From Planctomycetota bacterium (GTDB lineage Bacteria; Planctomycetota; UBA1135; GCA-002686595): DNA of 64,000 nucleotides. A program made the position numbers and the translations under genes. The stretch lies in contig JAJDEV010000107.1 in NCBI GenBank assembly GCA_029259605.1, positions 1 through 64,000 of the forward strand. The letters are read 5' to 3'. Of the stretch, positions 48,637 through 49,967 are shown piece after piece. The first letter of the stretch is position 1. Each line of letters opens with the position of its first letter. The notes beneath the pieces are model-generated. The model ran no database searches, was not told the origin of the DNA, and worked only from the letters and a program-made list of their open reading frames with translations.

Positions 48637-48649
48637 GGCGGCCTACTCG
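48630..48649. terminator. Hairpin over two convergent stop codons
   Basis: CGAGTAGG and CCTACTCG pair perfectly (8 bp) around a GCGG loop. The hairpin contains the TAG of the enoyl-CoA hydratase (48634-48636) and the TAG of the opposite-strand peroxidase-like gene (48643-48645). It has no T-run, so intrinsic termination would be weak; it may act in both directions as a 3'-end stabiliser. Confidence 0.4.
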
Positions 48650-49182
48650 AGCTCGACGCCGAGCCCGTCGACGATGCGGTTCGCGTACGCGTAGTACGCC
48701 GTCGCCTCGACGATGCCGAGGATGTCCGCATCTTCGAAGCCGACGGCGCGCAGGCGGTCGACGTCGCCGCGCTCCATCGCCGACGGCGTGCGCGTCAGCT
48801 TGTCCGCGTAGCGGCACAGCTCGAGGCGGCGCGCATCGAGGCCCGCTGACTCGTAGTCGAGGGCGATGCGTTCGGCGGTCCCGTCGTCCTTCAGCAGTCG
48901 GCGCAGACCGCGCCGATGGTGGGTGATTCAGTAGTGGCAACCGTTCCGCACGCTCACCACGACCGCGATCATCTCGCGCTCGACCTTGCGCAGTCCCTTC
49001 GTTCCGCGCATCGCGGCGCGGTACACCGCCCAGTGCGCCGCCAACCCGTCGGGGTGCAGCGAGTGGACCTTGAGGACGTTGTCGACCCGTCCGGAAACCG
49101 GATCGAGCATCTCGGCGTAGAGCGCCGCCAAGCGACCGTCGTGCTCGGCCTCGTCTTCGCCGATCGTCTCGATCCAGGACAC
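48643..49182 (-). CDS. Selenocysteine-containing AhpD-like peroxidase-related protein (C82xxU85)
   Basis: 179-aa protein if the TGA at 48930-48928 is read as selenocysteine. Residues 1-84 (GTG start 49182) end REMIAVVVSVRNGCHY; the TGA is codon 85; the same frame then continues ITHHRRGLRRLLKDDG, LCRYADKLTRTPSAMERGDV, FEDADILGIVEATAYY and NRIVDGLGVELE to TAG 48643. Both halves belong to one family, the AhpD/carboxymuconolactone-decarboxylase-like peroxidase-related enzymes, in which this place is the second cysteine of CHYC-x2-HH. The motif is thus C82-x-x-U85, with the histidines kept. A SECIS-like hairpin follows the TGA. It is coupled to the FKBP gene (2 bp after its stop). Expected role: thiol/selenol-based peroxide reduction. 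A plain nonsense mutation is the alternative, but both halves show full conservation. Confidence 0.85.
48893..48930 (-). promoter_or_regulatory. Putative bacterial SECIS element
   Basis: Counting the UGA as 1-3 on the minus strand, nucleotides 15-21 (UCGGCGC) pair perfectly with 27-33 (GCGCCGA), and the five-base apical loop 22-26 is GGUCU. The E. coli fdhF SECIS has, from memory, the same GGUCU at the same distance from UGA, where the loop GU contacts SelB. Unlike fdhF there is no bulged U in the stem. The stem lies inside coding sequence, as bacterial SECIS elements do. Confidence 0.8.
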
Positions 49183-49184
49183 GC

Positions 49185-49967
49185 TCAGTCGAGCACGGCC
49201 AGGATCTCGATGTCGTAGACGACGGTCGCGTTCGGCGGGATCGACGTGCCGAAGCCCTTGTCGCCGAAGGCGAGGTCCGGCGGGATGATCAGCTTGCGCT
49301 TGCCACCCTTGCGCGCGCCGGGGAGTCCTTCCATGAGCCCCTTCAGCGGCGCCTCGGACACCTTGAAGGTCTGCGTCTCGTGGTCCTGGTAGGTGCTGAA
49401 GACCAGCGTCCCGTCGAGGGTCGTGGTGAGGAAGTGGACGCGCACGGTCGAGTCCGGGGTCACCCACTTGCCGTCGCCCTCGCGGACGTCGTGCACCTGG
49501 AGGCCGGAAGGACGGACGTCTTGGACTTCGCCGACGACGGGCGTGCCCGGGAACCGCTCGAGCTTGACCCACGTCTTGACGCGCTTGAGCACGACGCCGA
49601 CCTGCACTTCCCAGCGCCGGTAGATGTCCTCGTTCTTCTTCTCGTTGAAGTGGTGGGTGAGGAGCTCGATCCGATAGAACGGCTTCTGGCTCAGGCGCAG
49701 CTCCGCGGAGAGCGTGCGCACCTCGAGGAAGTCGTACTTCTCGTCGGCGTAGGCGTAGGCGATGTCGATCGCCTCCTGCATCGGGAGCGCGATCCCGTTG
49801 GTGCGCTCCCAGTACTGCTTGCCCGACGGCAACGTGGTGACCCAATCGTCGCAGTCCGTGCGGAAGTTCGGCGAGTCGAGGCCGAAGACCGGACCGTCGT
49901 CCTGAACGTGGGTGTTTCCAGCGAGGAAGCAGGTCGCGACGACGGCGGTCAGATTCAGGATGCGCAT
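49185..49967 (-). CDS. Exported FKBP-type peptidyl-prolyl isomerase
   Basis: 260-aa protein with an N-terminal signal (LNLTAVVATCFLAGN). Residues about 25-135 are family-specific and unrecognised (VTTLPSGKQYWERTNG, LLTHHFNEKKNEDIYRRW). The last about 110 residues are an FKBP domain: STVRVHFLTTTLDGTLVFST, GLMEGLPGARKGGKRKLIIP and FGDKGFGTSIPPNATVVYDI. The usual GWEEG segment reads GLMEG. It should help folding of exported proteins. It is upstream of the selenoprotein gene with only 2 bp between them, so the two are probably cotranslated. Confidence 0.88.
   Translation of the reverse strand: MRILNLTAVVATCFLAGNTHVQDDGPVFGLDSPNFRTDCDDWVTTLPSGKQYWERTNGIALPMQEAIDIAYAYADEKYDFLEVRTLSAELRLSQKPFYRIELLTHHFNEKKNEDIYRRWEVQVGVVLKRVKTWVKLERFPGTPVVGEVQDVRPSGLQVHDVREGDGKWVTPDSTVRVHFLTTTLDGTLVFSTYQDHETQTFKVSEAPLKGLMEGLPGARKGGKRKLIIPPDLAFGDKGFGTSIPPNATVVYDIEILAVLD

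Follow-up and report, generated by a model that had tools for sequence, protein, structure and literature searches.

AhpD-like selenoproteins have been described before. A Sargasso Sea survey recorded 27 sequences of the CxxU type in COG2128 and has a figure of the SECIS (PMC1088965), and the GOS survey counted 299 sequences of an AhpD-like 1 selenoprotein (PMC2398784). A 2022 review gives COG2128 as CxxU with MCB9421940.1 as its example (PMC9312934), and a 2026 review gives TIGR01926 as CxxU with the same example (PMC13188914). Selenoproteins of planctomycetes were also reported earlier, in a paper whose main text makes no mention of AhpD (PMC4807772). The family itself is not new, then: it was described in 2005 and 2008 and has its place in the 2026 review, in agreement with an earlier note on the present DNA, which held that AhpD-like selenoproteins had been proposed in surveys.

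Among related proteins, an AhpD-like protein of D. radiodurans protects against H2O2 by means of its CxxC, the AhpD of M. tuberculosis receives its electrons from a lipoamide protein and in turn reduces AhpC, and in C. glutamicum AhpD can reduce OsmC (PMC8945050).

The gene studied here lies in a window of 64,000 nucleotides, the whole stretch of DNA that was analysed, from a planctomycete genome of 305 contigs that is 91.5% complete. Since the CxxU selenoproteins of COG2128/TIGR01926 are already described, the window gene joins an established family. Likened by description, not by sequence, it shows no difference in kind from the Sargasso Sea and GOS proteins: the model is the same, Sec occupies the same CxxU position, and the SECIS element reported there directly downstream is predicted likewise in the window gene. 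What sets the window copy apart is that its planctomycete lineage has a further Sec paralogue.

The reading frame and its product

The minus-strand frame opens at GTG 49182, reaches TGA at codon 85 (48930-48928) within the motif NGCHY-U-ITHH, and continues to TAG 48645-48643 for a total of 179 residues, just as the earlier note had read it. The features are collected in Table 1. Read-through frames are common by chance in this G+C-rich window, where a loose scan returned well over a hundred of them across TGA codons. That scan was therefore discarded as evidence, and the case for the AhpD-like gene must rest on homology, conservation and the decoding machinery.

Table 1. Positions of the AhpD-like gene, its active-site codons, the predicted hairpin and the upstream neighbor in the window
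Feature	Position	Strand	Remarks
AhpD-like selenoprotein gene (TIGR01926, PF02627)	48643..49182	(-)	179 aa, GTG start, TAG stop; homologues run from residue 1-2 to residue 179
Sec85 codon (putative), in-frame TGA	48928..48930	(-)	second position of CxxU; aligned to Cys of the solved homologues 2pfx and 3c1l
Cys82 codon (TGC)	48937..48939	(-)	first Cys of CxxU; invariant in 135/135 aligned sequences
Predicted bacterial SECIS hairpin	48898..48916	(-)	covariation, and synonymous constraint at codons 91-93
Upstream gene, FKBP-type C-terminal part	49185..49967	(-)	identified from reading its sequence

Scored against TIGR01926 (peroxidase-related enzyme), the read-through product reaches 141.6 bits, where the cut-off is 81.8, and it also matches the Pfam CMD family. 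Because the TIGR01926 match spans residues 26-176, the segments before and after the TGA are parts of a single known protein, and the peroxidase-related AhpD-like identity claimed earlier is upheld. Two further families of AhpD-type CxxU selenoproteins are distinct from it. For NF041238 (AhpD_rel_CFYUT) the score is 32.8 bits, below the cut-off of 175, which places the window protein outside that family. The distant AhpD homologue COG0599/NF041047, listed as CxxU in the reviews, has a different family model, and the NF041047 profile gave no match to the product up to E 0.001.

A structure prediction, built from the window sequence and those of its relatives, has the all-helical fold of the AhpD superfamily (pLDDT 94.7, pTM 0.89). 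Among solved structures it is matched best by 6k40, the AhpD-like protein of D. radiodurans (DR_1765; TM 0.87), and 2prr aligns at TM 0.90. Together with 2pfx, 3c1l and 2oyo, these proteins share the fold (TM 0.79-0.90) and the position of the CxxC; they differ in being only about 30-35% identical to the window protein and in having Cys for Sec, as seen in the alignments of 2pfx and 3c1l. Those two alignments support the proposal that the TGA falls on the active-site cysteine.

The AhpD catalytic set is Glu, Cys, Cys, His. In M. tuberculosis AhpD, which has Cys and not Sec, the spacing is Glu-x11-Cys-x2-Cys-x3-His, matched by E70, C82, U85 and H89 of the window protein. That enzyme (1knc, 1gu9) is otherwise very distant, with 12% identity and a TM of about 0.5. 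The set is complete in the AhpD-like protein, with C82 and U85 or C85 as the CxxC/CxxU pair and E70 and H89 as the proton-relay residues. Asn80, Tyr84 and His89 are, like Cys82, invariant in the 135 aligned sequences, residue 85 is U or C in all 135, and Glu70 is kept in 133. Both the fold and the active-site layout are thus supported.

The FKBP-like gene upstream ends in a TGA 2 nt before the GTG, and the two genes are possibly co-transcribed. A conserved operon was considered and rejected: the arrangement is not kept in most relatives. Since the FKBP-like neighbor is adjacent in two other genomes only (L024 of G007; L039/L010 of G008), a functional link between the two genes was rejected as well.

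Conservation of the TGA and a hairpin downstream

Of the 101 relative genomes, 89 have homologues, as do 106 of the 294 genomes sampled from the phylum; most of these homologues contain a single internal stop, which is a TGA. The locus of G199, a genome of this phylum, agrees in its match statistics and in the sequence around the UGA with JAJDEQ010000160.1, a Planctomycetota MAG, so the phylum is most likely Planctomycetota. At the codon-85 column of 139 aligned loci, a count that includes a few duplicates of one genome taken from two collections (e.g., L009 and L053), there are 131 TGA and five TGC codons, one degraded copy and two fragments without the site. Neither TAA nor TAG occurs at this column among the 139 loci. 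No related viral contig was found. Plasmid homologues are no more than about 45% identical, and most among the matches listed are annotated as peroxidase-related enzymes.

A tree made by FastTree, the root of which is unreliable, resolves two clades. Clade I, with 39 sequences and a support of 0.998, holds the window copy. Clade II, with 82 sequences and a support of 0.997, includes a second AhpD-like gene of the same genome (L097, C89:21647-22192), about 40-42% identical and likewise CxxU by TGA. Many genomes have a copy from each clade. A third, divergent AhpD-like protein was seen elsewhere (L154, G020:C164:9214-9732), about 29% identical and with CVH-TGA at its active site.

One might read the TGA as a nonsense mutation or a sequencing error in a gene for a cysteine enzyme, that is, as a degraded or misread TGC or TGT. 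The codon is a single base away from TGC, which five homologues have at that site, and one degraded homologue does carry other stops. However, the same TGA is common to 131 loci, in many genera and in independent assemblies, and constraint is equal before and after it: in 37 clade I relatives, identity to the window protein averages 0.60 on each side, and third codon positions vary most on both. The earlier note had likewise claimed conservation on both sides and had named randomly placed stops in relatives as a sign against its reading; the stops found are not random but sit at one column. The exception is the degraded homologue, L156 (G036:C65:17003-17521), which has several stops (TAG and TAA), lacks the CxxU motif and is likely a pseudogene. 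Because the TGA is conserved across independent assemblies, the reading as a mutation or error is refuted, and we give it next to no probability; the Sec machinery and the SECIS element described below stand against it as well.

The mRNA downstream of UGA 85 can form a hairpin with a core stem of 6 bp, CGGCGC/GCGCCG (48915-48910 with 48904-48899), one outer pair, and a loop of 5 nt, GGUCU (48909-48905). The core begins 12 nt past the UGA, and the GG of the loop lies 18 nt past it. In clade I (38 sequences), the cells that pair amount to 92.1%, compared with 21-53% in slid registers; 13 double-change cells are spread over three pairs, and 0 of 1000 shuffles, which are not corrected for relatedness, reach the observed pairing. 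Codons 91-93 (CGC GGT CTG) are almost frozen in this clade, at 36/37, 37/38 and 38/38, respectively. Nowhere else in the gene is synonymous change so restricted; its other synonymous sites vary. The clade I hairpin is missing from the five TGC forms, which is expected, but they are few.

The clade II hairpin occupies nearly the same place with a different sequence, GACCUC...GAGGUC, and, in 76 sequences, five of its pairs show 46 double-change cells between them; the hairpin of the second copy in the window's genome is conserved, and unlike that of the window copy. Folding of the window sequence by itself is non-significant (z = -0.97), so the case for a SECIS element rests on the comparison among relatives. 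An Rfam scan of the gene region gave nothing near the gathering score. On these comparative grounds, the hairpin downstream of UGA 85 is predicted to be the expected SECIS element.

Selenocysteine machinery in the genome and across the phylum

The genome has one tRNA-Sec with the anticodon TCA (UCA), on contig C263 at 75.6 bits. The selA gene is on C13 (495.9 bits), selB is on C46 (two pieces in the same frame, 343.7 bits together), and selD is on C263 (314.4 bits). The earlier note had suggested looking for selA, selB, selC and selD, and all four are there. The selD gene, which shares its contig with tRNA-Sec, appears to be a selenoprotein gene too, with an in-frame TGA in ASCAGUAAK (L020:185-187; L020 is G000:C263, near 155-1102).

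A genome-wide reassignment of UGA to Trp or Gly would also let an in-frame TGA be tolerated. Yet TGA remains an ordinary stop here: the FKBP-like gene, 49967-49185, ends at TGA, so there is no general reassignment in this genome. The internal TGA is, moreover, confined to one column, and the tRNA with anticodon TCA is tRNA-Sec, where reassignment would require a suppressor tRNA-Trp(UCA). We regard reassignment as exceedingly improbable.

Among the 101 relatives, selB is above the cut-off in 93 and tRNA-Sec is present in 95. Over the 294 genomes of the phylum, selB accompanies the TGA gene in 93 of 99 genomes and is found in 98 of 195 without it (Fisher p = 2.4e-15, not corrected for relatedness). 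Six genomes have the TGA gene without selB above the threshold (G024, G159, G247, G312, G323 and G362); gaps in the assemblies, or incomplete assemblies, are the likely cause. Seven genomes have only a stop-free frame, and selB is absent in four of them and present in three. Those three are G181, G198 and G359, and in G359 the site is TGC (L067). They possibly record changes from Sec to Cys or from Cys to Sec.

Decoding of UGA 85 as Sec is strongly supported by these comparisons of sequence. We hold it very nearly certain that the gene specifies a Sec-containing AhpD-like enzyme of TIGR01926/COG2128, in which UGA 85 would be read by way of tRNA-Sec, SelB and the SECIS element and which would work by an AhpD-like redox mechanism.

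Proposed mechanism and the two paralogues

We propose that SelB, recruited by the downstream hairpin, delivers tRNA-Sec to UGA 85. On the model of AhpD, the attack on the substrate, be it a peroxide, a disulfide or another electrophile, would come from Sec85. Sec85 would be oxidized to a selenenic acid, which Cys82 would then resolve to a selenenylsulfide, with Glu70 and His89 serving as the proton relay. A dithiol donor, such as a lipoyl protein or thioredoxin, would reduce the selenenylsulfide. The gene product would thus be a selenocysteine AhpD-like peroxidase or thiol-disulfide oxidoreductase, with both its peroxide substrate and its reductant suggested by the analogy with AhpD.

Sec may instead be inserted into an enzyme that is chiefly a thiol-disulfide or peroxiredoxin reductase, or a reductive dehalogenase like Bmp8, and not a peroxidase. 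The reduction of AhpC and OsmC by other AhpDs would fit such a role, and the debrominase Bmp8 shares the fold (6ohi, TM 0.77), so that other chemistry is possible. In contrast, the nearest characterized relative, 6k40 (34% identity in the fold alignment), guards against H2O2 through its CxxC, a role that fits a peroxidase and leaves a reductase activity compatible. We consider a chiefly non-peroxidase enzyme rather doubtful, if well within the range of serious possibilities, and favor the AhpD-like redox enzyme with Sec85 as the attacking residue.

Standard gene calling halts at UGA 85 and would miss the catalytic residue and the C-terminal half of the protein, as with other unflagged selenoproteins. 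The covarying, synonymously frozen SECIS element provides a clean consensus for annotating more copies.

The CxxU AhpD-like family is, by its predicted sequences, widespread in one planctomycete lineage. What is added here is the presence of two distinct Sec paralogues in this lineage, with a different conserved predicted SECIS element in each; a limited literature search found no earlier description of the two-paralogue pattern. It is tempting to propose that two ancient paralogous Sec-AhpD enzymes have been kept together in a planctomycete order, with two unrelated SECIS sequences near the same register and with Cys forms rare, a proposal that we make tentatively and rate at a little under an even chance. 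If it is true, Sec-based defense against peroxides or through thiols would be ancestral for the family here, and not the product of scattered replacement of Cys. With two Sec paralogues in many related genomes, the lineage is suited to asking why Sec is kept, and it may serve as a test bed for comparing Sec and Cys forms in speed or in resistance to over-oxidation.
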